From contig NZ_CP009438.1 in the NCBI RefSeq assembly GCF_000761215.1, positions 682,001 through 746,000 on the forward strand: DNA of 64,000 bases, written 5' to 3'. Shown here piece after piece: positions 17,799 to 31,957 of the stretch (the first letter of the stretch is position 1; the number at the start of each line of letters is the position of its first letter). The DNA comes from Streptomyces glaucescens. Lineage in GTDB: Bacteria > Actinomycetota > Actinomycetes > Streptomycetales > Streptomycetaceae. The notes below the pieces were generated by a model. That model searched no databases. It saw only the letters and a program-made list of their open reading frames with translations, and was not told the origin of the DNA. Both the position numbers and the translations under genes were made by a program.

Positions 17799-17968
17799 GG
17801 GGCGCGGCCATGGGGGCCCGCCGGTCCGGCGTCGGGCCCAAGGGGGCGGCGGAGGCCGCCGGTCCGGCGCGCGCGACTCCCCCACGGCCAGTACGGTGCT
17901 GTGCAAGCGCTGTCCAGGTGTGCGCTCCAGGGTGCGCCCGGGCGTACACGCCCGAGCGGGGAGACGCC

Positions 17969-18772
17969 ATGGCCGGCAAGCAGGCGGCGAAGCTGCCGCG
18001 CAAGAGGTACGAGAGGGAACTGCTGCGCCTGCAGACGGAGTTGGTCCGGCTCCAGGAGTGGGTGCGCACCGAGGGCGCCCGGCTGGTCGTGGTCTTCGAG
18101 GGGCGGGACGCGGCCGGCAAGGGCGGCACCATCCAGCGGGTCACGGAGCATCTCAACCCGCGCGTGGCCCGGATCGCGGCGCTGCCCAAGCCGACCGAGC
18201 GCCAGCGCACCCAGTGGTACTTCCAGCGGTACGTCGAGCACCTGCCGGCCGGCGGGGAGATCGTGCTGTTCGACCGGAGCTGGTACAACCGGGCCGGTGT
18301 CGAGCGCGTGATGGGCTTCTGCACCCAGGAGGAGTACCGGCTGTTCCTGCGCCAGTGCCCGATCTTCGAGCGGATGCTGGTGGAGGACGGCATCCTGTTG
18401 CGCAAGTACTGGTTCTCGGTGAGCGACGCGGAGCAGCAGGACCGCTTCCGGCGCCGCCTGGAGGATCCGCTGCGGCGCTGGAAGCTGTCCCCCATGGACC
18501 TGGAGTCGATCACCCGCTGGGAGGCGTACTCCCGGGCCAAGGACGAGATGATGGTGCACACCGACATCCCCGAGGCACCGTGGTACGTCGTGGAGAGCGA
18601 CGACAAGCGGCGGGCCCGGCTGAACATGATCGCCCATCTGCTGGACTCCGTTCCGTACCACGACGTCCCGCCGCCGGTGCTGGAGCTCCCGGAGCGTCCG
18701 CCGTCCACCGGTTACCAGCGCCCGCCGCGCGACCTCCAGACGTACGTCCCCGACCACGCGGCCGGTCTCTGA
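17969..18772 (+). CDS. ppk2: Polyphosphate kinase 2
   Basis: A 267-residue single-domain PPK2, which transfers phosphate between polyphosphate and a nucleotide. The Walker A motif is GRDAAGKGG at residues 45-53, Walker B is VLFDRSWYNRAGVERVMGF near residue 105, and the lid helix appears in EDPLRRWKLSPMDLESITRWE. YVVESDDKRRARLNMIAHLL closes the fold. Size fits class I (NDP-using) enzymes. ATG at 17969 has GGGGAGA upstream; open frame 5' of this is not coding. The gene follows the ClC gene with a 170-base gap, so a shared transcript is possible but not shown. Confidence 0.93.
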   Translation: MAGKQAAKLPRKRYERELLRLQTELVRLQEWVRTEGARLVVVFEGRDAAGKGGTIQRVTEHLNPRVARIAALPKPTERQRTQWYFQRYVEHLPAGGEIVLFDRSWYNRAGVERVMGFCTQEEYRLFLRQCPIFERMLVEDGILLRKYWFSVSDAEQQDRFRRRLEDPLRRWKLSPMDLESITRWEAYSRAKDEMMVHTDIPEAPWYVVESDDKRRARLNMIAHLLDSVPYHDVPPPVLELPERPPSTGYQRPPRDLQTYVPDHAAGL

Positions 18773-18844
18773 CCGCGCCCGGCGCGACGCCGGGCGGGGT
18801 GCCGCCGCGTCGGCGGCCCGGTTCCGGGCCCGTTCGGCTCGGGT

Positions 18845-18877
18845 GGCGCCCGGCCCTCCGCCGGAGGGCTCGGCGCC
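18845..18877. terminator. Stem-loop between convergent ppk2 and GST genes
   Basis: Arms at 18845-18859 and 18863-18877 pair with two mismatches in 15 bases around a three-base loop. A smaller 8-bp stem sits at 18776-18796, just after the ppk2 stop. Together they probably end both convergent transcripts. Confidence 0.6.
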
Positions 18878-18887
18878 GGGACGGGGG

Positions 18888-19775
18888 TCAGGGACAACAG
18901 AGCGCCGAGGGCCGGCCGGTGCCGTCCGCGATGTGGGCCGCCCAGTCCAGGATCTGCACCGCCGCACCGGCGGCCTCCAGTCCCTGGCAGCGGGCGTGGT
19001 GGCGGCGGGCGATGCCCGGCAGGTCGAGGTGGCGGCCGAAGTCGGGGTGGCCGGCCAGCCGCCGGGCGTAGGCCCACAGCCGCGGGTGGCCGGCGATGCG
19101 GTGGACGGCGTCGGCGTCCAGGTGCCGGCGGTGCACGGTGTCGAGCTGCACCAGGGTCACCCAGACGTGGACGTCGGCGACGGTCATGCGGTCGCCCAGC
19201 ACGAACTCCTGGAAGCTGAGCCGTCCCTCCCACTGCCGCAGTGTGCCCAGCAGCACCGCCAGCGCGGCGCGGCGCTCGCCGGCGTCGGCTCCGGGCCGCC
19301 CCGCGCGCTGCGCGGCCTCGTCGACGCCGTGCTCACAGAGGTGTTCCACGGCGGCGATCTCCGCCTCGGCACCGCGCGGGTGGAGCCCGCGGCGGTCGCT
19401 GCCGAAGTGCCGGGCCAGGTCCCGCAGGATGTCCGGGGCGTGGGTGCTGACGATGCGTCCGGTCCAGTCGTCGCTGAGCACGGGTGCCGTGGCGGGGCCG
19501 GGGTGGCGGTGGGACGTGGCCTCGTAGAGCGGGCGCAGTGCGGTGTGCCCGCCGTCGGGCCCGTCGGGCACGGACGGCAGCAGGGTCACCGGCAGGGTGT
19601 GGTGCAGACCGAGCAGGCTGTGGGTGATGGCGAGTCGCAGGGAGTGGGGGCAGGACGGCGAGAGGTGGAGGCGGTAGCGGCGGGCGACGGCGTAGTAGCC
19701 GCTGCTCGCGTCGCAGCCGATCCTGCCGCGCAGCGGGGGCGCGGGCGGCAGGCTGGTCGAGGGTGCGGCGGGCAT
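18888..19775 (-). CDS. Xi-class glutathione S-transferase-like protein
   Basis: A 295-residue protein of the Ecm4/YqjG type, the glutathionyl-hydroquinone reductases. The thioredoxin-fold half contains SPSCPHSLRLAI, where Cys corresponds to the catalytic Cys of the family CPWA motif. STHAPDILRDLA and the all-helical C-terminal domain (GRLSFQEFVLGDRMTVADVHVWVTL) follow. Streptomycetes make mycothiol rather than glutathione, so the in vivo thiol is probably different. A sulfur leader peptide (19920-20042) lies 144 bases upstream on the same strand, suggesting cysteine-linked control. AGGGAGA precedes the ATG at 19775. Confidence 0.85.
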   Translation of the reverse strand: MPAAPSTSLPPAPPLRGRIGCDASSGYYAVARRYRLHLSPSCPHSLRLAITHSLLGLHHTLPVTLLPSVPDGPDGGHTALRPLYEATSHRHPGPATAPVLSDDWTGRIVSTHAPDILRDLARHFGSDRRGLHPRGAEAEIAAVEHLCEHGVDEAAQRAGRPGADAGERRAALAVLLGTLRQWEGRLSFQEFVLGDRMTVADVHVWVTLVQLDTVHRRHLDADAVHRIAGHPRLWAYARRLAGHPDFGRHLDLPGIARRHHARCQGLEAAGAAVQILDWAAHIADGTGRPSALCCP

Positions 19776-19919
19776 GTGTCTCCCTGGATCCTGGGCCGGC
19801 TTCTGGGTGCGCGGGGCGGCGGGCGGCGCGCGGGCGGCGCACGGAGGGGGGTGGGGGACGCGTGACGGCGTCGGCGTCCACCCGTGCGCGCGGGCATGGG
19901 GTGCCGTGGGGACCGTTGG

Positions 19920-20042
19920 TCAGTTCGGCGCGCTCGCCGCGCTGCAGACGCGCAGCAGATCGATGTGGCGGCGGGAGGTCAGGAGCAGGGCCGGCCGCCC
20001 CGCGCGTACTGCGCGGTCGGTGGACGACTCCGCACGCTCCAT
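19920..20042 (-). CDS. Sulfur-type leader peptide upstream of GST
   Basis: A 40-residue ORF from ATG 20042, too short for most gene callers. It contains TSRRHIDLLRVCSAAS, the conserved actinobacterial leader-peptide core (RRHIDL-R-V-SA with a Cys) found before sulfur-assimilation genes. AGGAAA precedes the start. The likely role is in cis: ribosome progress through the Arg/Cys codons tunes downstream expression. No stable product need accumulate. The next gene is the Xi-class GST. Confidence 0.75.
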   Translation of the reverse strand: MERAESSTDRAVRAGRPALLLTSRRHIDLLRVCSAASAPN

Positions 20043-20045
20043 CGT

Positions 20046-20068
20046 TTTCCTACCCATCCGCTAGGGAA
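20046..20068 (-). promoter_or_regulatory. Sulfur operator copy A (TTCCCTA-N9-TAGGAAA)
   Basis: A 23-bp dyad with one arm mismatch ends three bases before the leader start, so its right arm doubles as the ribosome site. The same motif occurs at 26768 and 28742 before the two other leaders. A bound repressor would cover the translation start region. Confidence 0.6.
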
Positions 20069-20318
20069 CCTGTAGGGAGTGTCGGGCGGGCCCGAGGGCC
20101 CGTCAAGGGGGCCGTCACGGATCCCGCCCGCCGTCTCACATGCCGGATGGAACACGGAAGGACGTGTCAGGCCGTCCGGTCCGCCCGTCCGCGTCCCGCA
20201 TGACCCTCGGCGGCCCGCCCGGCGACGTCGTCGTGGCCGCCCGGCGGGAACCCCTGGCCGGGGGGACGCGCCCGCCCCCGCGGGCCTCCGCTCGTCGCCG
20301 CCGGCCGCGGCGGGCCGC

Positions 20319-20876
20319 TCATCCGGCCGTCGCCAGCAGGGCCGTACGGCCGTCGAGGGCCGCGGCGAACCGGTCGACGACCTGGGCCAGGGCCTCCGCC
20401 GCGCCCGGCGCGACGGACAGGTGGCCGTCGTCGGTCACCGCGATGTCCCTGTCGAGGGTGAACCAGCCCTGGACGATGTGCCCGGCGCCCATGGAGCTGA
20501 GGACGGGGCGCAGCGCGTAGTCGATGGCGAGGACGTGCGCGGTGCTGCCGCCGGTCGCCAGCGGCAGCACCGTCTTGCCGGCCAGGGCGTACTGCGGAAG
20601 CAGGTCGAGCAGCGACTTCAGCAGCCCGGAGTAGGCGGCCTTGTAGACGGGGGTGCCGATGACGATGCCGTCGGCGCGGTCGAACAGGGCGGCCGCCCCG
20701 GCGATCGCCGGGTGCCGCACGTCGGCGCCGAGCAGGGCCTCGGCGGGCAGCGTACGGACGTCCAGGGGGATGACCTCGTGCCCCTGGGCGGTGAGCCGGC
20801 GGTCCAGGTGGCGCAGCAGCCGGGCGGTGCGGGAGGTGGCGGAGGGGCTTCCGGAGACGGACAGGACGGTGGCCAT
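20319..20876 (-). CDS. NADPH-dependent FMN reductase, SsuE-like
   Basis: A 185-residue flavodoxin-fold reductase. The FMN phosphate loop SGSPSATSRTARLL is at residues 8-21, and the family motif GTPVYKAAYSGLLKSLLDLL follows around residue 78. It should supply reduced FMN to the flavin monooxygenase encoded at the head of the same operon, as SsuE does for SsuD. GAAGGA precedes ATG 20876. It is the last gene of a seven-gene minus-strand operon, 55 bases after the second binding-protein gene. Confidence 0.9.
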   Translation of the reverse strand: MATVLSVSGSPSATSRTARLLRHLDRRLTAQGHEVIPLDVRTLPAEALLGADVRHPAIAGAAALFDRADGIVIGTPVYKAAYSGLLKSLLDLLPQYALAGKTVLPLATGGSTAHVLAIDYALRPVLSSMGAGHIVQGWFTLDRDIAVTDDGHLSVAPGAAEALAQVVDRFAAALDGRTALLATAG

Positions 20877-20931
20877 GGCGAATCCTTCGGAGTGCGGGAC
20901 GGGCGGGGACGGCGGGAACGGGCGGGACGGT

Positions 20932-21912
20932 TCAGCCGTCGGTCCTGGGCAGGCCGGGCGGGTTGATCTGCGACCTGGTCACGGCCTCGTCGGACAGTCC
21001 CCAGCGCGCCAGGACCTGGGCGTAGGTGCCGTTCTCGATGACCTCGTTCAGCGCGGCGGCCAGGGGCTTCACCAGGCCGCTGTCCTTCTTGGTGGTGGCG
21101 GCGATGAGGCCCTGGAGGCCGGCGCCGGCCCCGGAGTAGGTGCCCACGACCTCGGTCTTGCCGGAGGTGGCCGCGTGGTAGGCGGCGGTCGGGTTGGGGC
21201 CGAGGTAGAGGTCGATGCGGCCGGACTGGAGGGCGAGGTAGGTGTCGGTGTCGTTCTGGTAGTACTTGATGTCCACCGGTTCGCGGCCGGCCTTCTCGTT
21301 CGCCTTGCTCCACTCGATGAGCAGCTTCTCCTGGTTGGTGCCGCTGCCGACCGCGACCGTCCGGCCCGCCACGTCCTCGGGACCGTCGACCTTCAGGCCG
21401 CTGCCCTTCTTCGCCTCGAAGCCGAGGTTGTCCTCGCGGTAGGTGGCGAAGTCGTACTTCTCCTTGCGCTCCTCGGTGACGGTGATGTTGCTGAAGCCGA
21501 CGTCGTACTTGGCGCTGTCGAGGCCGACGAAGACGTTCTCCCAGGAGACGGTGTTGAAGTGCGGCTTCAGTCCGAGCACGTCGGCCACCAGATGGGCGAT
21601 GTCGGGTTCGACGCCGATCAGGGTCCTGTTGTCGGTGGCGTGGAAGGTGAGCGGCGCGGCGGAGCCGGAGGAGTCGGCGATCTCCAGGGTGCCTCTCTCG
21701 CGGATCTCCCGCGGGACCTGGGCGGCTATGGAGTCGACCTTCCCGGTGGTGACGCGGTCCTGGTCGGGGCTGGTGTTGATCTTCGTCGTGGTGCCCCTGG
21801 CGTCCGCGACCTCGGTGGTGCCGCCCTCGTCGGGGTTGGCGCAGGCGGCGAGGACGAGGGCGCCGGCGAGTCCGAGGGCCGCTGCGACGGTACGGCGGGT
21901 GAGGGTGGGCAC
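20932..21912 (-). CDS. Solute-binding lipoprotein, amino-acid ABC type
   Basis: A 326-residue periplasmic-binding-like lipoprotein (family 3). The signal ends in the lipobox LVLAAC near residue 24. The mature part has IGVEPDIAHLVADVLG, KYDVGFSNITVTEERKEKYDF and SGRIDLYLGPN, the usual ligand-cleft features of polar amino-acid or cystine binders. AAGGAG precedes the GTG at 21912. It is the second binding protein of this operon; the transporter may therefore accept two ligands. Cystine or another sulfur amino acid is the favoured ligand because of the operon's company. Confidence 0.9.
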   Translation of the reverse strand: MPTLTRRTVAAALGLAGALVLAACANPDEGGTTEVADARGTTTKINTSPDQDRVTTGKVDSIAAQVPREIRERGTLEIADSSGSAAPLTFHATDNRTLIGVEPDIAHLVADVLGLKPHFNTVSWENVFVGLDSAKYDVGFSNITVTEERKEKYDFATYREDNLGFEAKKGSGLKVDGPEDVAGRTVAVGSGTNQEKLLIEWSKANEKAGREPVDIKYYQNDTDTYLALQSGRIDLYLGPNPTAAYHAATSGKTEVVGTYSGAGAGLQGLIAATTKKDSGLVKPLAAALNEVIENGTYAQVLARWGLSDEAVTRSQINPPGLPRTDG

Positions 21913-21959
21913 GGTGGTTCTCCTTGCTGGGGGTCGGGCTGGGGTCGGGCCGGGGCGGG

Positions 21960-22724
21960 TCAGAGGACCTTGGAGAGGAAGGCGCGGGTGCGTTCGTGGC
22001 GCGGGGTGTCCAGGACCGCCGCGGGCGGCCCCTGCTCCACGACGAGGCCGCCGTCCATGAACACCACGGTGTCGGCGACCTCGCGGGCGAAGCCGATCTC
22101 GTGGGTCACGACGATCATGGTGGTGCCGGTGGCGGCCAGGTCCCTGATGACTTCCAGGACCTCGCCGACCAGTTCGGGGTCGAGCGCCGAGGTGGGCTCG
22201 TCGAAGAGCAGCACCTTCGGTTCGAGGGCGAGCGCGCGGGCGATGGCGACGCGCTGCTGCTGGCCGCCGGAGAGCTGACGCGGGTAGGCGTCGGCCTTGT
22301 CCTCCAGGCCGACCCGGGCGAGCAGCCGGCGGGCCGTCCCGGCGGCCTCCTTGCGGGGGCGGCGCAGGGCCGAGACGGGGGCCTCGGTGACGTTCTCCAG
22401 CACGGTCAGGTGCGGGAAGAGGTTGAAGTTCTGGAAGACGAACCCGATGTGGGTGCGCTGCCTGAGCACCTCCTTCTCCCTGAGTTCGTGCAGCTTGTCG
22501 CCGGAGCGGCGGTAGCCGATGAGTTCACCGTCGATGCTGATCCAGCCGCGGTCGACCTTCTCCAGGTGGTTGATGGTGCGCAGCAGCGTGGACTTGCCCG
22601 AGCCGGACGGGCCGAGGATCACGGTGACCTCGCCGGGGCGGACCTGCAGGTCCACGCCGCGCAGCACCTGGAGCGCGCCGAAGCTCTTGTGGACGCCGTG
22701 CACGTCCACCATCACCTGACTCAT
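21960..22724 (-). CDS. Amino-acid ABC transporter ATPase
   Basis: A 254-residue ATPase. Walker A is GPSGSGKST, the Q-loop is FVFQNFNLFPHLTVLENV, the signature is LSGGQQQRVAIARAL, and Walker B is VLLFDEPTSALD followed by the switch His in VVTHEIGFA. Sequence matches the polar-amino-acid/cystine group (GlnQ, TcyN type). The ATG at 22724 overlaps the permease stop by four bases (ATGA), so the two are translationally coupled; the longer open frame upstream is not coding. Confidence 0.93.
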   Translation of the reverse strand: MSQVMVDVHGVHKSFGALQVLRGVDLQVRPGEVTVILGPSGSGKSTLLRTINHLEKVDRGWISIDGELIGYRRSGDKLHELREKEVLRQRTHIGFVFQNFNLFPHLTVLENVTEAPVSALRRPRKEAAGTARRLLARVGLEDKADAYPRQLSGGQQQRVAIARALALEPKVLLFDEPTSALDPELVGEVLEVIRDLAATGTTMIVVTHEIGFAREVADTVVFMDGGLVVEQGPPAAVLDTPRHERTRAFLSKVL

Positions 22725-23659
22725 CGGCTGTCTCCCAGGGTCTTGAGGGCGCGCCGGGCGCGCTGGAGCGGGGTGGGCGGCGGGGTGCGGTCGGCGCCGC
22801 GGGCGTAGTGCCGTTCGACGTAGTACTGGGCGACCGAGAGCAGGGAGGTCAGGACCACGTACCAGGCGGTGGCGACGAGCAGCAGCGGGATGACCCGGCC
22901 GTTGCGGCCGTAGATCACCTGCACCTGGTAGAACAGTTCGCCGATGGCCATGACGTAGACCACCGAGGTGCCCTTGAGCAGGCCGATGATCTCGTTCCCG
23001 GCCGTGGGCAGGATGGCCCGCATGGCCTGCGGCAGCACGATCCGGCGGATCTGGCGCAGGCGCGGGATGCCGAGCGCGGCGGCGGCCTCCCGCTGGCCGG
23101 GGTCGACGGCGAGGACACCGCCGCGGACGATCTCGGCGGCGTAGGCGGCCTGGTGGAGGGTCAGTCCGATGACGGCGGCGCCGATGGTGCCGATGAGGCT
23201 GTTGCTGTCGACGGACCAGAACACCGGCCCGAAGGGGATGCCGACGCCCAGCCGCTCGTACAGGGCGCTGAGGTTGAACCAGAACACCAGCTGGACGATC
23301 ATCGGGATGGACCGGAAGACCCAGATGTACGTCCAGGCGACGGTCCGCAGCACCGGGCTGTGCGACAGCCGCATGAAGGCGATCACGGTGCCGAGGAGGA
23401 ACCCGAGCACGGTGGCGTAGGCGGTGAGCTGGAGGGTCACCCACACGGCCTGCACGATCGTCTCGGAGAAGACGTACTCGGCGAAGACGTGCCATTCCCA
23501 GACGGGGTTGGTGGCCAGGCCGTGGGCGAACTGGGCGACCAGCACGAGCACGGCGACGGCGGCGGCCCAGCGGGCGTAGTGGCGGGCGGGGACGACGGTG
23601 AACTCGGCGGGCCGGCCGTCCAGCCGCTCCGCGGGCGGGGTCAGGGTGTCGCTGCTCAT
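22721..23659 (-). CDS. Amino-acid ABC transporter permease
   Basis: A 312-residue permease of the HisM/TcyL type with about five membrane helices after a 30-residue cytoplasmic start. The EAA loop is EAAAALGIPRLRQIRRIVLPQAMRAILP, placed near residue 200, which contacts the ATPase. Only one permease gene is present, so a homodimeric channel is expected. Three bases separate it from the upstream binding-protein gene. Confidence 0.92.
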   Translation of the reverse strand: MSSDTLTPPAERLDGRPAEFTVVPARHYARWAAAVAVLVLVAQFAHGLATNPVWEWHVFAEYVFSETIVQAVWVTLQLTAYATVLGFLLGTVIAFMRLSHSPVLRTVAWTYIWVFRSIPMIVQLVFWFNLSALYERLGVGIPFGPVFWSVDSNSLIGTIGAAVIGLTLHQAAYAAEIVRGGVLAVDPGQREAAAALGIPRLRQIRRIVLPQAMRAILPTAGNEIIGLLKGTSVVYVMAIGELFYQVQVIYGRNGRVIPLLLVATAWYVVLTSLLSVAQYYVERHYARGADRTPPPTPLQRARRALKTLGDSR

Positions 23660-23662
23660 GGA

Positions 23663-24607
23663 TCACCTGTGCTCGGGTGGATTGATCCGCGACGCGTCGA
23701 TCGCGGAGGCGGTGGTGCCCCACTTGGCCAGGATCCGGGCGTAGGTGCCGTCCTCGATCAGCCGGTTGACCGCGGCCTGGAAGGCCTTGGTGAGCGGGGA
23801 GCCCTTCTGGAAGGCGAAGCCGACGTCGAGGCGGTGGTACTCGCCGAGGAAGACGGTCCCCGACGCGGGCTGGGCGGCCTGGTGGCGCAGTCCGTTGATG
23901 GTGGACATGATGACGTCGACACGGCCCTGCTGGAGGGCGGTGAGGGTGGCCGCGTTCTCGGAGTAGACCTTCACGTCGTAGGGCTCGCGGCCCGCCTTGG
24001 CGCACACGCCCTTCTCCGCTTCGAGGGTGGCCTCGAAGGTGGTGCCGGCGCCGGTGCCGACGGTCAGCCCGCACAGCTGGACCAGGTCGGTGACCCTGCC
24101 CTTGAGCGCGGTGCCGCCCTTCCTGACCGCGAAGCCCTGGCCGTCGTTGATGTACGTGACGAAGTCGACCCGCTTCAGGCGTTCGGCGGTGACGCCGAAG
24201 TTGCCCGTGCCGACGTCGAACTTGCCGCTGCCGAGGGCCGGCAAAATCGACTCGAACGACGCCTCCTGGCGTTCCAGCTTCACGCCGAGGACCTTGGCGA
24301 CCGCGTCGGCGAGGTCGATGTCCAGTCCCGCGGGCTCGCTGCCGGGGCCGTCCGGGTAGTAGGCGCCGGGCGGGAAGCCGATGGAGCTGCCGATCCGCAG
24401 GGTGCCGGCGGCACGCACGTCGGCGGGCAGCAGCGCGGCGGCGGCCTTCACCTCGCGCACGTCGGCCACCGGGTCGTCGGCCGGCGCGGGGGACGCCTGG
24501 GCGCCGGCCGGGGACGTGCCGGGCGTACCGCCGGAGCCGCAGGCCGTGAGCGCCAGCACCGGCAGGAGCGTGCCGACGAGCCGGATCGCGGTGCCTCGGA
24601 GGTTCAC
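23663..24607 (-). CDS. Solute-binding lipoprotein, amino-acid ABC type
   Basis: A 314-residue family 3 binding lipoprotein. The signal ends at LALTAC, near residue 22. Cleft features include GLDIDLADAVAKVLGVKLE, FDVGTGNFGVTAERLKRVDF and GRVDVIMSTINGL. Two mature cysteines (LCGLTVG and GVCAKAG) could form a disulfide. The GTG at 24607 overlaps the GNAT stop by four bases (GTGA). It pairs with the permease immediately downstream. Confidence 0.9.
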   Translation of the reverse strand: MNLRGTAIRLVGTLLPVLALTACGSGGTPGTSPAGAQASPAPADDPVADVREVKAAAALLPADVRAAGTLRIGSSIGFPPGAYYPDGPGSEPAGLDIDLADAVAKVLGVKLERQEASFESILPALGSGKFDVGTGNFGVTAERLKRVDFVTYINDGQGFAVRKGGTALKGRVTDLVQLCGLTVGTGAGTTFEATLEAEKGVCAKAGREPYDVKVYSENAATLTALQQGRVDVIMSTINGLRHQAAQPASGTVFLGEYHRLDVGFAFQKGSPLTKAFQAAVNRLIEDGTYARILAKWGTTASAIDASRINPPEHR

Positions 24608-25131
24608 TGGGTGGCCGCCTCTCGGGTCGGTGCGGTGGTACGGGGGGACCGCGGCAGGTGCTTCTCGAAGGGCAGCGGGCCGAGGGTCTCCGGGTCGGCG
24701 CCCGTGTCGAACAGCGGGGTGTAGCCGGTCGCCAGGTACAGGGCGCGAGCCTCCGGCTGGCGGGGCCCGGTGGTGAGGAAGACCCGCCGGTAGCCGCGGC
24801 CGGCGGCCTCGCGCTCCAGCTCGGCGACGACCCGCCGGGCGAGTCCGCGCCGCCGGTGCGCGGAGTGCGTCCAGATCCGCTTCAGTTCGGCGGTGGCCGC
24901 GTCGTACCGGCGGAAGGCACCGCCCGCGACCGGCTCGCCCGCTTCGAGGAGGAGCAACAGGACGCCTCCGTGGGGCGCCGTGAACTCCTCGTCGGGGTAG
25001 CGGGCCAGTTCCTCGTGGGCGTCCTTGCCGTAGCGGCGGGAGTACTCGTCGCCGAGTTCCCGCAGCAGGGGCCGCACCCTCGGGTCGGAGACCGGGACGT
25101 GGACGACCGTCAGGTCCGGTGCGGAGGTCAT
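24604..25131 (-). CDS. GNAT N-acetyltransferase
   Basis: A 175-residue GNAT protein. The acetyl-CoA pyrophosphate loop is HSAHRRRGLARRVV near residue 90, followed by LTTGPRQPEARALYLATGY, typical of the last helix-strand pair. Its overlap with both neighbours (ATGA with the monooxygenase, GTGA with the binding protein) places it firmly in the sulfur operon. In Bacillus, comparable transporter operons carry an acetyltransferase that N-acetylates S-modified cysteines before oxidation; a similar role here is inference. Confidence 0.88.
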   Translation of the reverse strand: MTSAPDLTVVHVPVSDPRVRPLLRELGDEYSRRYGKDAHEELARYPDEEFTAPHGGVLLLLLEAGEPVAGGAFRRYDAATAELKRIWTHSAHRRRGLARRVVAELEREAAGRGYRRVFLTTGPRQPEARALYLATGYTPLFDTGADPETLGPLPFEKHLPRSPRTTAPTREAATQ

Positions 25132-26258
25132 CCCTGCACCGCCGCCAGGGGCTGGACCCCGCGGGCCGCCTCGCGTGCGGCGTCACGCTTGGCGACCTCC
25201 TCGCGGACGATCGGGATGACGTGCCGGCCGAAGTCGATCGCGTCGCCCAGCAGGTCGTAACCGCGCGCGGAGAGGATGTCGACGCCGAGGTCGTGGTAGT
25301 CGAGCAGGGCCTGGGCGACCGTCTCCGGCGTGCCGACCAGGGCGTTGGAGTTGCCCGCTCCCCCGGTGGCGGCGGCGGTCGGGGTCCACAGGGCGCGGTC
25401 GTAGCGCTCCCCCGCCTCCGCGATGGCGAGCAGCCGCTGCGAGCCGGTGTTCTCGGGCGCGTTGTCGCGGTGGTGGCGGACCAGGCCCGCCTCGCGGCGC
25501 CTGCGGATCGCGCCGACCGTGCGGTGGGCCTTCTCCCAGGCCAGTTCCTCGGTGGGGGCGATGATCGGCCGGAACGCCACCTGGATGCGGGGCACGTCGG
25601 TGCGGCCCGCCGCCTTCGCCGCGGCCTTCACGGCCTCGATCTGCTCGGCCGTCCGCTCCAGGGGCTCGCCCCACAGGCAGTAGATGTCGGCCTCCGCGCC
25701 GCCGGCGGCGTACGCGGCGGGTGAGGAGCCGCCGAAGGAGACGTCCGGGCGGGGCTGCTGGACGGGGAAGACGTCGCTGACGAAGTCGTGGAAGCGGTAG
25801 TGGTCGCCTTCGTGGTCGAAGGGCTCGTGGGTGGTCCAGATCTTCTTGACGATCCGGATGTACTCGCGGGTGCGCTCGTAGCGCTGGTCCTTGGTGAGGG
25901 TGTCTCCCTCGCGGCCCTGCTCGTGGTCGTTGCCGCCGGTGATGAAGTGCACGGTCAGCCGGCCCTCGCTGATCTGGTCGAGGGTGGCGAACGTCTTCGC
26001 GGCGAACGTCGGGTAGGAGACGTTCGGGCGGTGGGCGAGCAGGATCTGGAGCCGCTCCAGCCTGCTCGCCACGTAGGCCGCGGCGGGCGCGGGGTCGGGC
26101 GATCCCGAGCCGTAGGCGAACAGCACCCGGTCCCAGCCGTGGTCCTCGTGGGCACGGGCGAGACGGAGTGTGTACTCCTTGTCGAAGGCGGCGCCGGAGC
26201 GCGGGGTGGTCTCGGAGCCGTCGTTGGTGGCGGCGATGCCAAGGAACTCCACGGGCAT
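25128..26258 (-). CDS. SsuD-like FMNH2-dependent monooxygenase
   Basis: A 376-residue luciferase-like monooxygenase, near the length of alkanesulfonate monooxygenase SsuD. Matching regions are RPNVSYPTFAAKTFATLDQIS, GRLTVHFITGGNDHEQ, QQPRPDVSFGGSSPAAY, YCLWGEPLE and the C-terminal ALVGTPETVAQALLDY. It should use FMNH2 from the SsuE-like reductase to cleave a C-S bond and release sulfite. ATG 26258 has GAGGAAAGG upstream. It heads a seven-gene operon behind leader peptide 2. Because the transporter is an amino-acid type rather than SsuABC type, the substrate may be an amino-acid-like organosulfur compound. Confidence 0.9.
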   Translation of the reverse strand: MPVEFLGIAATNDGSETTPRSGAAFDKEYTLRLARAHEDHGWDRVLFAYGSGSPDPAPAAAYVASRLERLQILLAHRPNVSYPTFAAKTFATLDQISEGRLTVHFITGGNDHEQGREGDTLTKDQRYERTREYIRIVKKIWTTHEPFDHEGDHYRFHDFVSDVFPVQQPRPDVSFGGSSPAAYAAGGAEADIYCLWGEPLERTAEQIEAVKAAAKAAGRTDVPRIQVAFRPIIAPTEELAWEKAHRTVGAIRRRREAGLVRHHRDNAPENTGSQRLLAIAEAGERYDRALWTPTAAATGGAGNSNALVGTPETVAQALLDYHDLGVDILSARGYDLLGDAIDFGRHVIPIVREEVAKRDAAREAARGVQPLAAVQG

Positions 26259-26585
26259 GGGAGAGGGCCTTTCCTCGGGTTCGCCGGGGGCGCCGGGCGC
26301 GTCTGCCCTCGCATGCGGGCAGGCGGGCACGGCCGGGCGGCCCCCGGTGCGGAACCGGGTGGTGAACGGGTGTGAGCGGTGCTGCTGGGTGGTGAAGGGT
26401 GTGACGCCGCCGGGGCGAGGACGTGGCACGGCCGGGAGGACCGGCGTCGGGGCCTCGCCGGGAGGCGGGGACGCCGGGAAGCCGGACGGCGGCGGGCCGG
26501 GAGGCGGGGAAGAAGCGGTGGCGGGCCCCGTCAGGGGCTGGCAGCCGAGAGCGTGAGCGGGCCGGTCAGTCGGCCCGTCGTGGCA
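26259..26585 (-). other. 327-base leader-to-operon region with direct repeats
   Basis: This stretch separates leader peptide 2 from the monooxygenase gene and should be transcribed. It holds two imperfect direct-repeat pairs: GGGTGGTGAA(C)GGGTGTGA at 26357-26375 and 26387-26404, and GCCGGGAGGCGGGGA near 26456 and 26494 (plus-strand reading). These could allow alternative RNA pairings for attenuation. I see no further gene. Confidence 0.4.
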
Positions 26586-26663
26586 TCAGGCGCGACACGC
26601 GGCGGACCACACGCGACCGAAGTCGATGTGGTCACGGGTGACCAGGCGCTGCTCGGCGTTCAT
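26586..26663 (-). CDS. Sulfur-type leader peptide, HIDF variant
   Basis: A 25-residue ORF from ATG 26663. Its sequence contains TRDHIDFGRVWSAACRA: the usual RRHIDL core has become RDHIDF, but spacing to the S-A-C end is kept. An AT-rich stretch (CAATTAAT) lies just upstream of the start. It lies 327 bases before the monooxygenase operon on the same strand and presumably controls it in cis. Confidence 0.7.
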   Translation of the reverse strand: MNAEQRLVTRDHIDFGRVWSAACRA

Positions 26664-26767
26664 GCGATTAATTGAGCAGTACATCGCCCGTCCCGTCAAC
26701 TGCGGCCCGGATGACGGACGGTGCGGCTCGGCCTCCGTCCCGTCCCTGCTCAGCCATCTTCCCTAGA

Positions 26768-26790
26768 TTTCCTATCGATTTACTAGGAAA
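26768..26790. promoter_or_regulatory. Sulfur operator copy B (perfect dyad)
   Basis: TTTCCTA-N9-TAGGAAA on the minus strand, with perfect 7-bp arms. It lies 104 bases before leader 2 and 30 bases before the divergent acyl-CoA-dehydrogenase-like gene, so one site could control both directions. An extra CTAGGG follows on the minus strand, as in copy C. Confidence 0.7.
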
Positions 26791-26820
26791 GTATTGACGG
26801 TGGTTCAGGGGGTGCGCAGG

Positions 26821-28059
26821 ATGAGGCGCATGGCCACTGCCCCCGCACCGCCCCAACCGACCGCGGAGCCCCGGCGCACCGGGCCCGGCCGTGCGCACTG
26901 GCTGCGCGTGATCCGTGAGACGGCGGACGACCTCGCCACCGACGCGGTGGAACGGGAGCAGGCGGGGAAGGCGCCGTTCGACGAGGTGTCCCGGCTGCGC
27001 GAGGCGGGGCTGCTGACCCTGCTGATACCGGCCGAACTCGGCGGCGGGGGCGCGGACTGGCCCACGGCGTACGCCGCCGTCCGGGAGATCGCCGCCGCCG
27101 ACGGCGCCGTCGCCCAGCTCCTCGGCTCCCACACCTTCCTGTCGTGGAGCGCCCGGTTCCTGGGCGAGCCCGCGCTCGCCGCCCGCATCGGCCGGCGGTC
27201 CGCCGCCGAGCAGTGGTGCTGGGGCGGCGGCCTGGCCCGCCAGGAACCCGCGCTCGCCCTGACCCCCTCGGCCGGCGGCCAGGTGCTGGACGGGCGGCAG
27301 AGCTACGTCACCGGTGTGCTGGTGGCCGACCGCGTCGCCGTCCGGGCGGTACGCGCCGACAGCGCGGAACCCGTCGCCGTCCTCGTCGACCCCGCGGCGC
27401 CCGGCGTGCGCGTCGACAACGATGCCGAGGCCTTCGGCCAGCGGCTGGCGGCCGGCGGCAGCGTGGAGTTCGACGCCGTGCCGGTGGCCGCCGACGACAT
27501 CCTCGGCTCGCTGTCCACGGAGGAGGACGCCCTCTCCCCGCGGACCGCGCTGATCTCGCCGGTCGGGCGGCTGCTCTCGGTCCAGCTGCGGCTCGGCATG
27601 GCCGAGGGGGTGCTCGCCGAGGCCCGCGACTACAGCCGGACGGGCCACGCGCCCTGGCACCCCGCCTGGCCGGTCGGCTCCCCGCACGATCCGCAGGTGC
27701 TGACCACGTTCGGGGAACTCACCGTGCTCGTGCGCGCCGCCTCCGCCCTCGCCGACCAGGCACTGGCCGCCGTGTGCGCCGGGCTGTCCCTCGGCGACGA
27801 CCTCACCTTCGAGGAGCACGCGGACATCGCCGTCCTGGTGGCCATGGCCGAGGCCGCGGCCGCCCGGGCGGCGCAGGAGTCGACCACCCGCGCCCTCGAC
27901 GTCGTCGGCGCCCGCTCGACCCCGGCACGGCTCGGCCTGGACCGCTTCTGGCGCGACGCGCGCACCCACACCCTGTACGAGCCCGTCGCCCCTCGTCTCC
28001 GCGACGTCGGGGACTACTTCCTGAACGGCGCGCACCCGGCGCTGGTCCTGCCCATGTGA
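26821..28059 (+). CDS. SfnB/DszC-like acyl-CoA dehydrogenase family oxidoreductase
   Basis: About 412 residues of the acyl-CoA dehydrogenase fold, in the branch that includes DszC and SfnB, flavin-dependent enzymes of organosulfur use. Visible features are LLIPAELGGGGADWPTAYAAVREIA in the N-terminal helices, the mid beta-domain (VLDGRQSYVTGVLVADRVAVRAV) and the C-terminal helix with DVVGARSTPARLGLDRFWRDAR. The usual catalytic Glu of fatty-acid dehydrogenases is not evident, consistent with an oxygenase role. I chose ATG 26821 (AGGGGG upstream); ATG 26830 and an upstream TTG at 26794 are alternatives. It is divergent from the sulfur operon across operator copy B. Confidence 0.82.
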   Translation: MRRMATAPAPPQPTAEPRRTGPGRAHWLRVIRETADDLATDAVEREQAGKAPFDEVSRLREAGLLTLLIPAELGGGGADWPTAYAAVREIAAADGAVAQLLGSHTFLSWSARFLGEPALAARIGRRSAAEQWCWGGGLARQEPALALTPSAGGQVLDGRQSYVTGVLVADRVAVRAVRADSAEPVAVLVDPAAPGVRVDNDAEAFGQRLAAGGSVEFDAVPVAADDILGSLSTEEDALSPRTALISPVGRLLSVQLRLGMAEGVLAEARDYSRTGHAPWHPAWPVGSPHDPQVLTTFGELTVLVRAASALADQALAAVCAGLSLGDDLTFEEHADIAVLVAMAEAAAARAAQESTTRALDVVGARSTPARLGLDRFWRDARTHTLYEPVAPRLRDVGDYFLNGAHPALVLPM

Positions 28060-28107
28060 CACCGGCCCGCGGCCCGCGGGAGGGCCTGCCCTCCCCCGCG
28101 CCACCGG

Positions 28108-28159
28108 GCGGTGTCCCGTCGATCGCGCCGGGCTCCCGGCGCGATCGACGGGACACCGC
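28108..28159. terminator. 25-bp perfect stem-loop
   Basis: Arms at 28108-28132 and 28135-28159 are perfectly complementary over 25 bases with a two-base centre. No T run follows. It lies between the SfnB/DszC-like gene and the Rrf2 regulator, both on the plus strand, and probably insulates them. Confidence 0.75.
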
Positions 28160-28212
28160 TCCTGGCCCCACCCGCCGCGGGACACGGCCGGGACCTGCGG
28201 GATAATGGCTGC

Positions 28213-28671
28213 ATGCGGATCTCAGCCAGGGCGGACTACGCGGTACGTGCCGCACTGCAGCTCGCCGCGTCACGCGACGACGGGCCCTTGAAGGCCGAGG
28301 CGATCGCGGCCGCCCAGGACATCCCGCACAAGTTCCTCGAAAGCATCCTGAACGACATGCGCCGCGGCGGTCTGGTGCTCAGCCAGCGCGGCGGGAACGG
28401 CGGCTACCGGCTGGCCAAGCCCGCCGAGTCCATCAGCATCGCCGACGTGATCCGCACTGTGGACGGCCCCCTGGTCTCCGTGCGCGGGGTCCGGCCCCCC
28501 GAGCTGTCCTACACCGGGCCCGCCGAGTCGCTGCTGCCCCTGTGGATCGCGCTGCGGTCCAATGTGCGGGAGATCCTGGAGGGGGTCTCGCTCGCCGATG
28601 TCGCGTCCGCCCAACTTCCTTCCGCCGTCTCGGAGTTGACCCATGCACCGAACGCCTGGGTGAACCCCTGA
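28213..28671 (+). CDS. Rrf2 family regulator, cysteine-free (CymR-like)
   Basis: A 152-residue winged-helix regulator. The Rrf2 signature is intact: ISARADYAVRAALQLAA at the start, IPHKFLESILNDMRRGGLV as recognition region and SQRGGNGGYRLAKPAESISIADVIR as wing. It contains no cysteine at all, so it cannot hold the Fe-S cluster of IscR or NsrR. This matches CymR, which senses sulfur status through a complex with cysteine synthase. Position between sulfur units with a shared dyad supports that role; direct binding is inference. GATAAT ends seven bases before ATG 28213, so the mRNA may be leaderless. Confidence 0.88.
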   Translation: MRISARADYAVRAALQLAASRDDGPLKAEAIAAAQDIPHKFLESILNDMRRGGLVLSQRGGNGGYRLAKPAESISIADVIRTVDGPLVSVRGVRPPELSYTGPAESLLPLWIALRSNVREILEGVSLADVASAQLPSAVSELTHAPNAWVNP

Positions 28672-28741
28672 TCTCACTCTTCGGGATGACGACGTCCACC
28701 ATGTGAACAACCTCTTGGGGTGGGGGCGTCCTTCTGCCACG

Positions 28742-28764
28742 ATCCCTAGCAACCAGGTAGGAAA
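28742..28764 (+). promoter_or_regulatory. Sulfur operator copy C
   Basis: ATCCCTA-N9-TAGGAAA lies 24 bases before leader 3. Without gaps it aligns with copies A and B over 25 columns. It is also nested in a second inverted repeat, GATCCCTAG (28741-28749) and CTAGGGATC (28766-28774). Confidence 0.65.
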
Positions 28765-28788
28765 ACTAGGGATCCGTGGGGGGCCGGC

Positions 28789-28890
28789 ATGCGCACGCAC
28801 AGCCACACGGATCTCGTCCTGCCGCGACTGACCTCACGTCGCCACATCGATCTCGGCCGCACGTCCAGCGCCATCTGTCGGCTCGTCTGA
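28789..28890 (+). CDS. Sulfur-type leader peptide upstream of ssuABC
   Basis: A 33-residue ORF from ATG 28789 ending at TGA 28890. It contains LTSRRHIDLGRTSSAICR, the standard form of the actinobacterial sulfur leader, with one Cys near the end. A run of six G bases serves as ribosome site. It lies 118 bases before the sulfonate transporter genes and is expected to act in cis on them. Confidence 0.8.
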   Translation: MRTHSHTDLVLPRLTSRRHIDLGRTSSAICRLV

Positions 28891-29008
28891 GACCGTCCGC
28901 AGCACCACGGCATCCCTGCGGGAGCCCTGTCGTGCTCGCCCTGGGCTGCCCCTCCTTCTTAAGTACTCGCGTACCTCCGTGATCGCCCTTCCCCGAGAGG
29001 ACACCTCC

Positions 29009-30115
29009 GTGTCTGCCGCAAGACCGCTCACCACCCTGCGCGCCCTCGCCGCCATAGCGGCCCTCCCCCTGCTGCTGACCGCCTGCGGCTACGGCGCCGA
29101 CTCCACGGACGACGACAAGCGCGCCGAGGTCGCGGCGGACGCCGAGAAGCTGTCCGCCGACGAGGTGCGGATCGGCTACTTCCCCAACCTCACGCACGCC
29201 ACCGCCCTGGTCGGCGCCGAACAGGGCTTCTTCCAGAAGGAACTGGGCGGCACCGAGGCGAAGTACGCCACCTTCAACGCGGGCCCGTCGGAGATCGAGG
29301 CGCTGAACTCGGGATCCATCGACATCGGCTGGATCGGCCCCTCCCCGGCCATCAACGGCTACACCAAGTCCGGCGGCAAGAACCTGCGGATCATCTCGGG
29401 TTCGGCGTCGGGCGGCGTCAAGCTCGTGGTCGACCCCGACAAGATCAAGTCCCTGAAGGACGTCAAGGGCAAGAAGATCGCCACCCCCCAGCTCGGCAAC
29501 ACCCAGGACGTCGCGTTCCTCAACTGGATCGCCGAGCAGGGCTGGAAGGTCGACGCGCAGAGCGGCAAGGGCGACGTCTCGGTCGTCCGCACCGAGAACA
29601 AGGTGACCCCGGACGCCTACAAGGCGGGCTCGATCGACGGCGCGTGGGTGCCCGAGCCGACCGCGTCCAAGCTGGTCGCCGAGGGCGCGAAGGTGCTGCT
29701 CGACGAGGCCGACCTGTGGCCGGACAAGAAGTTCGTGATCACGAACATCATCGTGTCCCAGGAGTTCCTGAAGAAGCACCCGGACGTCGTCGAGGCCGTG
29801 CTGCGCGGCGCGGTCAAGAGCAACGCCTGGATCAACGCCAACCCCGACAAGGCGAAGGCCGTCGCCAACCAGGCGCTGAAGCGGGACTCCGGCAAGGCGC
29901 TGCCCGCCGAGATCATCGATCCGGCCTGGAAGTCGATCACCTTCCTCGACGACCCGCTGGCCGCCACCCTCGACAGCCAGGCCGAGCACGCGGTGCAGGC
30001 CGGCCTGCTGGAGAAGCCCGACCTGACGGGCATCTACGACCTCACCCTGCTCAACAAGGTCCTCAAGGCCGAGGGCGGGGCAGCGGTCGACGACGCCGGT
30101 CTCGGCGTCCGGTAA
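29009..30115 (+). CDS. ssuA: Sulfonate ABC transporter binding lipoprotein
   Basis: A 368-residue lipoprotein of the SsuA/TauA type. The lipobox LLLTAC is near residue 22. The mature protein begins the fold at VRIGYFPNLTHATALVGAEQGFF, then has SIDIGWIGPSPAINGY and GKKIATPQLGNTQDVAF, all typical of sulfonate/nitrate/taurine binders. I chose GTG 29009, which follows GAGAGGAC; the GTG at 28979 lacks a ribosome site. First structural gene of ssuABC, behind leader 3. Confidence 0.9.
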   Translation: MSAARPLTTLRALAAIAALPLLLTACGYGADSTDDDKRAEVAADAEKLSADEVRIGYFPNLTHATALVGAEQGFFQKELGGTEAKYATFNAGPSEIEALNSGSIDIGWIGPSPAINGYTKSGGKNLRIISGSASGGVKLVVDPDKIKSLKDVKGKKIATPQLGNTQDVAFLNWIAEQGWKVDAQSGKGDVSVVRTENKVTPDAYKAGSIDGAWVPEPTASKLVAEGAKVLLDEADLWPDKKFVITNIIVSQEFLKKHPDVVEAVLRGAVKSNAWINANPDKAKAVANQALKRDSGKALPAEIIDPAWKSITFLDDPLAATLDSQAEHAVQAGLLEKPDLTGIYDLTLLNKVLKAEGGAAVDDAGLGVR

Positions 30116-30149
30116 TCCCCACCCGATCAGTTCCCAGGAGGTGACGACC

Positions 30150-30941
30150 ATGGCCACCCTGTCGGCCCCGGTCGAGGAGCACGCCACAGCAGCGGTGCGG
30201 CACGCCGCCCGGATCGAGCACGTCTCGAAGTCGTTCCCGGGCCCGGCCGGGCAGCAGCTCGTACTGGACGACATCAGCCTCGATGTCGCGCCCGGCGAGT
30301 TCGTCACCCTCCTGGGGGCCTCCGGCTGCGGCAAGTCCACCCTGCTCAACCTGGTCGCGGGACTGGACCGGCCGTCCGCGGGCTCGATCGCCACGGACGG
30401 CCGTCCCGCCCTGATGTTCCAGGAGCACGCCCTCTTCCCGTGGCTGACCGCCGGACAGAACATCGAGCTGGCGCTGAAACTGCGCGGGGTCGCCAAGCCG
30501 CGCCGACGGCCCGAGGCGGAACGTCTGCTGGAGCTGGTCCGGCTGCGCGACGCGCACGGCAAGCGGGTGCACGAGCTGTCCGGCGGCATGCGCCAGCGCG
30601 TCGCGCTGGCGCGGGCCCTCGCCCAGGACAGCAGGCTGCTGCTGATGGACGAGCCGTTCGCGGCGCTCGACGCCATCACCCGGGACGTGCTGCACGACGA
30701 ACTGACCCGCATCTGGCGCGAGACCGGCCTGTCGGTGCTGTTCGTGACGCACAACGTGCGCGAGGCGGTCCGGCTGGCCCAGCGCGTGGTGCTGCTGTCC
30801 TCCCGTCCCGGCCGCATCGCCCGCCAGTGGAGCGTGGACATCCCGCAGCCGCGCCGGCTGGAGGACACCGCGGTCGCCGAACTGTCCGCCGAGATCACCG
30901 AAGAACTGCGTGGGGAGATCCGCCGCCATGGCCAGCACTGA
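30150..30941 (+). CDS. ssuB: Sulfonate ABC transporter ATPase
   Basis: A 263-residue ATPase. Walker A is GASGCGKST, the Q-loop is LMFQEHALFPWLTAGQNIEL, the signature is LSGGMRQRVALARAL, and Walker B is LLLMDEPFAALD, with the switch His in FVTHNVREAV. PWLTA after the Q-loop is characteristic of SsuB/TauB. AGGAGG lies eight bases before ATG 30150. Its 3' end overlaps the permease gene by 14 bases. Confidence 0.92.
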   Translation: MATLSAPVEEHATAAVRHAARIEHVSKSFPGPAGQQLVLDDISLDVAPGEFVTLLGASGCGKSTLLNLVAGLDRPSAGSIATDGRPALMFQEHALFPWLTAGQNIELALKLRGVAKPRRRPEAERLLELVRLRDAHGKRVHELSGGMRQRVALARALAQDSRLLLMDEPFAALDAITRDVLHDELTRIWRETGLSVLFVTHNVREAVRLAQRVVLLSSRPGRIARQWSVDIPQPRRLEDTAVAELSAEITEELRGEIRRHGQH

Positions 30942-31836
30942 CACACCCGTCGACGCGCCCGGGAAGCCCGGGAAGGACGCCGGCGACCTGGCCGGCCTGG
31001 AGGCCGGGCTCGACGCCCTGGACTCGGTCGAGGTCCGCCGTACGCCGCTGCGCGAGACGCTGCTGCGCAAGGCGCTGCCGCCGGTCGTCGCGGTGGGGCT
31101 GGTGCTGGTGGTCTGGCAGCTGCTGGTGTGGGCGGAGGTGGCGCCCGACTACAAGCTGCCCTCTCCGGCCGCCGTGTGGGGCGAGGTGGAGGCCGCCTGG
31201 CTCCAGGGCACTCTGCTCGACTACATCTGGACCTCCGTCTCGCGCGGCCTGCTCGGCTTCCTGCTGGCGCTCGCCATCGGCACCCCGCTGGGCCTGCTGG
31301 TCGCCCGGATCGGCTTCGTCCGGGCGGCCATCGGACCCATCCTGTCCGGGCTGCAGTCCCTGCCCTCGGTCGCCTGGGTGCCCCCGGCGGTGATCTGGCT
31401 GGGCCTGAACGACTCGATGATGTACGCGGTGATCCTGCTCGGCGCGGTCCCGTCCATCGCCAACGGCCTGGTCGCGGGCATCGACCAGATCCCGCCGCTG
31501 TTCCTGCGTGCCGGTCGGACGCTGGGCGCGACCGGGCTGCAGGGGGCCCGGCACATCGTGATGCCGGCCGCGCTGCCCGGCTACCTCGCGGGGCTGAAGC
31601 AGGGCTGGGCGTTCTCCTGGCGGTCGCTGATGGCCGCCGAGATCATCGCCTCCTCCCCCGACCTCGGCGTGGGCCTCGGCCAGCTCCTGGAGAACGGGCG
31701 GAACAACGCCAGCATGTCCCAGGTCTTCCTGGCGATCTTCCTGATCCTGCTGGTGGGCATCGCCATCGATCTGCTGATCTTCAGTCCGCTGGAGCGACGG
31801 GTGCTGCGCGGGCGCGGTCTGCTGGTGAAGAACTGA
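30928..31836 (+). CDS. ssuC: Sulfonate ABC transporter permease
   Basis: A 302-residue permease with six predicted helices after a long polar N-terminus of about 50 residues. The EAA loop appears as LRAGRTLGATGLQGARHIVMPAALPGY. GWAFSWRSLMAAEII and LGQLLENGRNNASMSQVFLAI are typical of SsuC/TauC. GGGGAGA precedes ATG 30928. The set ssuA-ssuB-ssuC lacks its own monooxygenase; the SsuD-like and SfnB-like enzymes to the left could process the imported sulfonates. Confidence 0.92.
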   Translation: MASTDTPVDAPGKPGKDAGDLAGLEAGLDALDSVEVRRTPLRETLLRKALPPVVAVGLVLVVWQLLVWAEVAPDYKLPSPAAVWGEVEAAWLQGTLLDYIWTSVSRGLLGFLLALAIGTPLGLLVARIGFVRAAIGPILSGLQSLPSVAWVPPAVIWLGLNDSMMYAVILLGAVPSIANGLVAGIDQIPPLFLRAGRTLGATGLQGARHIVMPAALPGYLAGLKQGWAFSWRSLMAAEIIASSPDLGVGLGQLLENGRNNASMSQVFLAIFLILLVGIAIDLLIFSPLERRVLRGRGLLVKN

Positions 31837-31957
31837 CGGTGCACAGCCCGGCCCGTCGTCCCGTCGACGCCGCTGCGCGTGCCGGGCTCGGCGGGCCGCC
31901 CGCCCGCCGCACCGACGACTCCGGTACGGCGGACGAGCGGCCGGCGAGCGGCGCGCG

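Follow-up and report, generated by a model that had tools for sequence, protein, structure and literature searches.

A sulfur-type leader peptide and an operator-like element ahead of a divergent GST-fold gene in Streptomyces glaucescens

Why does a short leader peptide of the type that precedes sulfur genes stand ahead of a gene for a glutathione transferase (GST)-fold protein in Streptomyces glaucescens, and what would such a protein do under sulfur control? We analyzed the locus in a window of 64 kb (the whole stretch of DNA studied, to which all plain coordinates refer) from a genome consisting of a 7.45-Mb Streptomyces chromosome and one smaller contig, 7.6 Mb in total. The minus strand carries, in order, a promoter-like pair (-35-like TTGACG, 20101..20106, 17 nt from the -10-like GACACT, 20078..20083), an operator-like element (CCCTAGCGGATGGGTAGGAAA, 20046..20066) with inverted half sites CCTA-N9-TAGG, a 40-codon leader (MERAESSTDRAVRAGRPALLLTSRRHIDLLRVCSAASAPN, 40 aa, 19920..20042), a 144-nt spacer (19776..19919), and the GST-fold gene (295 aa, 18888..19775). 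The conserved core of the leader, TSRRHIDLLRVCSA, lies at 19938..19979 and includes a Cys codon (19944-19946), and the C-rich, G-poor spacer ends in AGGGAG, a Shine-Dalgarno (SD)-like sequence for the GST gene. The encoded protein matches Pfam GST_C_2 with 42.1 bits (cut-off 24.9) and belongs to a divergent Xi-derived clade with an altered active site. Comparison with relatives shows that a promoter-like pair, an inverted-repeat element, a putative leader carrying TSR(R/L)HIDLxR(V/I)xSA, and a GST-fold gene stand together amid predicted organosulfur genes. Our main reading, to which we assign a probability of roughly 55%, is that this would be a transcription unit of the sulfur regulon with two layers of control, an Rrf2-type repressor and an arrest leader, and that its GST-fold enzyme would help release sulfur.

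The minus strand upstream of the GST gene begins with a second sulfur-type leader (MNAEQRLVTRDHIDFGRVWSAACRA, 26586..26663), which is followed by an SsuD/SfnG-like LLM monooxygenase (25128..26429; PF00296 over its cut-off, PRK00719 at 200 bits under its cut-off) and a GNAT acetyltransferase (24604..25131; PF00583, 60.6 bits). An importer comes next, comprising a substrate-binding protein with a predicted start (23663..24604; an open frame whose equivalent spot in relatives is matched by the query of the other substrate-binding protein), an ABC permease (22721..23659; closest model cystine permease, under cut-off), an ABC ATPase (21960..22733; closest model TcyN, under cut-off), and an amino-acid/cystine-type substrate-binding protein (20932..21912; PF00497 over cut-off, the best transporter model, cystine substrate-binding protein, under cut-off). 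An SsuE FMN reductase (20319..20876; TIGR03567, 220 bits, over cut-off) then precedes the GST leader. Divergent from these genes, on the plus strand, are an SfnB/DszC-like protein of the acyl-CoA-dehydrogenase fold (26794..28059; below NCBIfam cut-offs), an Rrf2-family regulator that is the candidate binder of the element (28213..28671; TIGR00738, 109 bits, over cut-off), a third leader (MRTHSHTDLVLPRLTSRRHIDLGRTSSAICRLV, 28789..28890), and an ssuA/ssuB/ssuC-like ABC transporter (28979..31836; SsuA_fam at 202 bits over cut-off, the other two genes under equivalog cut-offs).

For comparison, homologues of the GST-fold protein were collected from 246 sampled Streptomyces genomes. Among the matches listed there were 122, of which 121 were divergent and 1 canonical; with near orthologues defined by a score of 240 bits or more, the listed divergent homologues fell into 94 near orthologues and 27 others. 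Canonical Xi-class genes served as controls (22 in all, including 20 from the same listing and the paralogue in the S. glaucescens genome). Neighbourhoods were counted for the 64 listed near orthologues with 4-kb flanks, the 30 closest (1.5 kb) being left out. Genes for organosulfur metabolism, amino-acid ABC transport, or Rrf2 regulators were found within 4 kb in 56 of these 64 and in 14 of 16 far homologues, compared with none of 20 canonical genes among the matches listed. With a stricter set (ssuE, SfnB, LLM, NtaA-like, TauD, SsuA, and SsuC), the listed matches gave 32/64, 7/16, and 0/20, respectively. A permease and substrate-binding protein pair lay downstream of the GST gene in the same direction in 26 of the 64 near orthologues listed. 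The arrangement shifts among relatives, and the same guild of genes stays.

These neighbours suggest that the GST-like protein looks like an enzyme of sulfur acquisition and less like an ordinary detoxification enzyme, and, from the company it keeps, the GST unit would respond to sulfur. A part in sulfur release is favored as the reaction because the enzyme would be switched on in sulfur shortage alongside importers and monooxygenases. The most likely substrate would be an organosulfur compound that is taken up or recycled (an S-conjugate, a mixed disulfide, or an alkylthio compound), and the enzyme would help to release its sulfur in partnership with the LLM monooxygenases, the SfnB-like protein, and the amino-acid-type ABC importers encoded nearby. 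If so, an enzyme fold known for detoxification would take its place in sulfur scavenging. The sequence-only reading had taken sulfur control as a sign that the enzyme works with a thiol whose level follows that of cysteine. This does not follow, because control by supply tells when a protein is needed and not what its co-substrate is; in addition, 6 of 93 near orthologues among the matches listed lack both N-terminal Cys residues. As set out in the available part of PMC10863075, cysteine is salvaged from S-alkylcysteine by acetylation and two flavoenzymes. This CmoO/CmoJ pathway shares flavin monooxygenases and an acetylation step with the present locus, where the LLM and GNAT proteins are candidates for these roles, but that part of PMC10863075 mentions no GST-fold member. 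Our search of the open-access literature turned up no article that deals with a GST in a sulfur regulon of Streptomyces.

The fold and the ancestry of the protein were examined together with its active site. The nearest PDB sequences were Xi/GHR-type enzymes, and the AlphaFold model (mean pLDDT 76.6; residues 1-16, 21-31, 86-92, and 286-295 under 50) gave Foldseek hits of which the first 32 were Xi/GHR-type or closely related chains, with TM values of about 0.6-0.7. A tree built from 75 sequences placed the divergent proteins in one clade apart from canonical Xi proteins (support 0.853); the near orthologues alone formed no clade, because seven sequences classed otherwise (partial or HDDC-type) fell among them. 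The Xi class is described in PMC6345682 as strictly conserving both CPWA and three tyrosines. The window protein has CPHS at the N-terminal motif, and CPW was found in none of the 121 divergent homologues listed, whereas the canonical controls have CPWA. At the places of Tyr189, Tyr247, and Tyr290 (NmGHR numbering), the listed near orthologues have Gln (92/94), His (94/94), and His (91/94), respectively. The fold and ancestry are thus shared with MstX of Corynebacterium glutamicum (PMC6815410), NmGHR (PMC6345682), and Escherichia coli YqjG, but the leader-linked protein has neither CPWA nor equivalents of the three tyrosines. On sequence and fold grounds, the ancestor was Xi-like and the active site has been rebuilt, and therefore the class name is unfit for the leader-linked protein; the earlier assignment as a Xi-class GST stood for fold and ancestry and failed for the CPWA motif and the Tyr triad. 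The S. glaucescens genome also contains a true Xi/MstX-type gene (L079, G000:C1:6823926-6824735) with CPWA and the Tyr triad, no leader, and a strong MstX-type structure match. Canonical Streptomyces Xi copies differ from the leader-linked gene in neighbourhood as well, and the two copies in one genome would make a natural before-and-after pair for studying how an active site is rebuilt.

The near orthologues carry C147, Q156, H215, H218, H259, and C263 (among the matches listed, C147 in 90/94, H218 in 93/94, and C263 in 91/94). This His/Cys set is confined to them; in the other homologues, position 147 is mostly Leu, and positions 215, 259, and 263 are mostly unaligned. The N-terminal motif is looser. 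C42 is present in 74 of the 94 near orthologues listed, and among the 93 listed sequences readable at this motif, 26 have CxxC, 48 only C42, 13 only C45, and 6 neither. The motif is often CPHC (for example, in L008-L011, L022, and L024) and drifts to CPDG or DPDC elsewhere. CPHC is the motif of DsbA. Such drift at the N terminus, together with neighbours that vary between genomes, is what one might see if the protein were a nonenzymatic or redox helper of the neighbouring monooxygenase system, such as a chaperone or an electron-transfer partner. We regard this as unlikely, because the near invariance of C147, Q156, H215, H218, H259, C263, and other residues in the near orthologues is expected for catalysis or metal binding.

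The coupling of the leader to the GST-like gene was evaluated in the same homologue set. A leader motif was present within 700 nt upstream of 109 of the 121 divergent homologues listed and of none of the 22 canonical Xi-class genes; by group, the TSR(R/L)HIDLxR-type motif preceded 86/94 near orthologues, 23/27 other divergent homologues, and 0/22 canonical genes among the matches listed. A pattern limited to R-R-H misses the R-L-H leaders and found 81/94 near orthologues and 4/27 others (3/10 and 1/17) among the listed matches. Control regions amounting to 352,284 codons did not contain the motif once. Its residues are fixed while third codon positions vary: in 59 distinct regions, Asp is encoded by GAT (35) or GAC (24), and Arg by CGC, CGT, or CGG. 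As these regions were chosen by the motif, only the Leu before it and the Val, Ser, and Ala after it were unselected residues, and that Leu and the Ala at the motif end were present in 59/59. The coupling counts, the codon pattern, and the motif-free control codons led us to reject a chance open reading frame (ORF). A restriction of the leader to close kin was also rejected, since it is kept down to homologues of 35-50% identity.

The longest leader ORF in the window spans 20057..19920 on the minus strand (45 aa), and comparison with relatives favors a predicted start at 20042, which gives 40 aa. The position relative to the upstream element could be assigned for 76 of 81 leaders in relatives, and 54 of these 76 start 5 nt past the element; the window leader starts 6 nt past it. 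Between leader stop and GST start there are 144 nt in the window and 43 to 536 nt in relatives. The pairing of a 40-residue leader with the gene at this distance, as the sequence-only reading had described it, was therefore borne out, also by its conservation among relatives. Relatives that keep the GST gene without the leader had been named as the finding that would speak against the pairing, and these amount to a few natural losses only. Among the matches listed, 8 near orthologues have no leader at the usual place. Four (L014, L154, L162, and L170) lack the core and retain the upstream element with 8 or all 9 of its bases intact; in the other four, the leader lies 1,530 nt upstream (L169, identical to L056), the gene is behind SfnB (L024), the contig ends (L196), or the start is unreliable (L203). 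In 2 of the 86 motif-bearing near loci (L190 and L197), the frames after the motif are long or unclosed.

The window leader was also compared with known leader families. It scores 25.6-25.9 bits against NF042934 (cis_reg_atten, "putative leader peptide"; cut-off 27), a cut-off reached by the GST leaders of 5 of 10 relatives, in one case exactly, and 28.4-28.8 bits against NF042936 (Ms4527A), under the cut-off of 45. The core R-x-H-(I/V)-D-L-x-R and the position of a short ORF ahead of sulfur genes are shared with these families; a single, dispensable Cys and the tie to a GST-fold gene set the window leader apart. Leader hits across the S. glaucescens genome range from 37.8 bits down to chance, with 8 of the 18 exceeding the cut-off. 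Leaders of this family precede a cysteine synthase (370 bits), an O-acetylhomoserine sulfhydrylase (819 bits), and SfnG (633 bits), all over cut-off, as well as the sulfonate-transport genes, in agreement with the earlier statement that such leaders precede assimilation genes. Also led, with scores under the respective cut-offs, are genes for an NtaA-type monooxygenase, a nitrite/sulfite-reductase-type protein (sulfite reductase is supported at the family level only), a sulfurtransferase, a flavin reductase, and a dicarboxylate-type symporter. Of the 10 genes tested downstream of leaders in this genome, 2 had no profile match at 1e-20. Three provisional names were dropped: an "SsuD" behind one leader has the SfnG profile, a "TcyP-like" symporter matches dicarboxylate-symporter models, and a "cysteine-dioxygenase-like" protein has no profile match. 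The leader of the LLM gene at 26586-26663 (minus strand) is of the TRDHIDFGRVWSAAC type and has a close look-alike, TRSHIDFGRVWSASC, at G000:C1:1765924 (L103). At G000:C1:878587 (L089), the leader-like ORF SRRRAIDLMRVTTAVCS precedes a possibly secreted protein with no obvious sulfur role.

We examined whether the leader Cys codon is constant among relatives. The Cys place is occupied by Cys in 76, Ser in 9, and Arg in 1 of the 86 near leaders, and by Cys in 6, Ser in 15, and Arg in 2 of the 23 other divergent leaders, among the matches listed. No Cys is encoded between motif and stop in 8/86 near and 16/23 other leaders of the listed matches, and 14 of these Cys-free leaders end in the LTRRLHIDLLRVSSAY type. 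Homologues of 35-44% identity are preceded in L218-L221, L242-L250, and L252 by leaders that lack Cys and run up to the stop codon with LTRRLHIDL(L/Q/S)R(V/I)SSAY; the operator element is absent from these loci. Because Cys is missing from many leaders, a counter of Cys codons is unlikely as the general mechanism, and sensing of cysteine through these codons, as had been proposed from the sequence alone, is doubtful. The Mycobacterium smegmatis leader ORFs with contiguous Cys codons are cysteine-responsive attenuators (Canestrari et al. 2020, as cited in the available part of PMC9031893). Like the GST leaders, they are short actinobacterial ORFs with a presumed role in sensing how much cysteine is available, but, going by the same part of PMC9031893, their Cys codons are contiguous, whereas the GST leaders have one Cys, sometimes Ser, and in most distant leaders none.

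These data bear on the alternative of a detoxifying Xi-class transferase that works with mycothiol, or with some other thiol dependent on cysteine, and is governed by an attenuator that reads Cys codons. It would fit the Cys codon at a conserved place in 76 of 86 near leaders among the matches listed, the attenuating M. smegmatis ORFs of PMC9031893, and MstX, a mycothiol-using Xi enzyme of Corynebacterium reported in PMC6815410. We consider it quite improbable all the same: many leaders are Cys-free, the neighbours are sulfur-scavenging genes, and the leader-linked clade has neither CPWA nor the Tyr triad, both of which belong to the different, leaderless MstX-like gene of this genome.

Attenuation by an intrinsic terminator or an SD-masking hairpin was rejected as unsupported. 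The spacers of 77 relatives showed no folding excess (mean z 0.17 versus shuffles), T-runs occurred in only 3 of 81 relatives, and no terminator-like site was found in the 144-nt spacer of the window; an Rfam search of positions 16000-32000 of the window returned nothing. A hairpin follows the leader stop in several relatives and is weak in the window. Because the distance from motif to stop varies, arrest at the stop codon is improbable. Conservation at the peptide level suggests that the leader is recognized within the ribosome tunnel. We thus suggest, with moderate confidence, peptide-dependent ribosome arrest by the leader. Leader translation would be a second gate, at which the nascent RRHIDLxR peptide would stall the ribosome under sulfur limitation by arrest and not by counting Cys codons. 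The stall would let RNA polymerase pass across the C-rich, weakly structured spacer, or let the GST start be used, and a spacer without a stalled ribosome would be open to termination, possibly by Rho.

Rho termination in the spacer is a guess from base composition. The window spacer has C 0.52 and G 0.28, with C minus G at the 99.2nd percentile of 144-nt stretches in the window. Spacers of 79 leader loci have C 0.480 and G 0.288, versus 0.339 and 0.365 before the 22 canonical genes, and C exceeded G in 12 of 12 leader units tested in this genome. The Rho step is weakened by the first part of the GST gene (0.470 and 0.293), because it is about as C-rich as the spacer. If the main reading is right, actinobacterial sulfur leaders of this kind would not have to rely on Cys codons for any sensing of cysteine, and the natural Cys-free and leader-deleted variants would make what leaders sense directly testable.

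The transcriptional signals upstream of the leader were compared in the same way. Among the matches listed, the promoter-like pair TTGACN-N16-18-GANACT stands ahead of the gene in 79 of the 86 relatives with a leader and in none of the 22 canonical controls; a plain sigma-70 scan of the window did not pick it up. For the element, the pattern TCCTAG-NNN-AAC-N-GGTAGG gave no site in this genome, and a looser pattern was then applied. In 7.6 Mb of genome, YCCTAG-N8-TAGGRAA is matched perfectly at exactly three places, each of them in the window and ahead of a leader: the GST copy at 20046, a second between the LLM and SfnB-like genes (26768..26788, minus strand), and a third at 28744..28764 (plus strand). 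At up to two mismatches, the window has 7 hits, both strands counted, versus 0.44 expected. Among relatives, exact CCTA-N9-TAGG occurs in 80 of 113 distinct leader-upstream regions, and the element, counted when at least 8 of its 9 bases match, lies upstream of 84/94 near, 5/27 other divergent, and 0/22 canonical genes of the matches listed.

The presence of the element was compared with that of the regulator. Across the 246 sampled genomes, an exact site was found somewhere in 94 of the 147 with an Rrf2 match at 1e-50 and in 5 of the 99 without one. Among the 86 leader-bearing near orthologues listed, the element was present in 79 of 81 with a genome Rrf2 and in 1 of 5 without (Fisher p 3e-5, ignoring shared descent), the Rrf2-less genomes being few and not all independent and the weaker matches (66-72%) possibly a second Rrf2 gene. 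The exception (G224, which has the element and no Rrf2 at 1e-50) has an Rrf2-like gene beside its GST. Such co-occurrence is not proof of Rrf2 binding, because the element and the Rrf2 gene are both parts of these gene clusters. The Rrf2-type repressor encoded nearby would bind CCTA-N9-TAGG and would open the unit when a cysteine or sulfide signal falls. The Rrf2 family and the sulfur setting are shared with the CymR/Rrf2 cysteine regulators as described in the part of PMC8557817 available, but the window protein scores 84.5 of the 195 bits of the CymR model NF047409 and thus does not reach it; the comparison covered the family and setting.

Rrf2 control would not be general, because the element is missing from 22 of the 27 other divergent homologues listed, of which 13 sit in genomes with an Rrf2 match; 23 of the same 27 have the leader. 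Conversely, at least six genomes (L014, L154, L162, L170, L208, and L213) have the element without the leader motif. Because each occurs without the other among homologues, element and leader evolve separately. An incidental leader, with sulfur control purely transcriptional through the operator, would suit these six homologues but is the least probable of the alternatives, as leader residues are conserved while codons vary and distant homologues retain the peptide without the element. We put forward only tentatively a fuller version of the main reading, in which a new GST-fold subfamily with a rebuilt His/Cys, possibly metal-binding, site would release sulfur, a Cys-independent arrest peptide would act on Rho-type termination, the element would be a previously undescribed candidate Rrf2 operator, and the switch would be common to about a dozen Streptomyces operons. 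The element copies at 26768-26788 (minus strand) and 28744-28764 (plus strand) are each followed within a few bases by a third half site, CTAGGGA, that the GST copy does not have, and the element of L162 is a more fully palindromic version, CCCTACTGAACCAGTAGGG.
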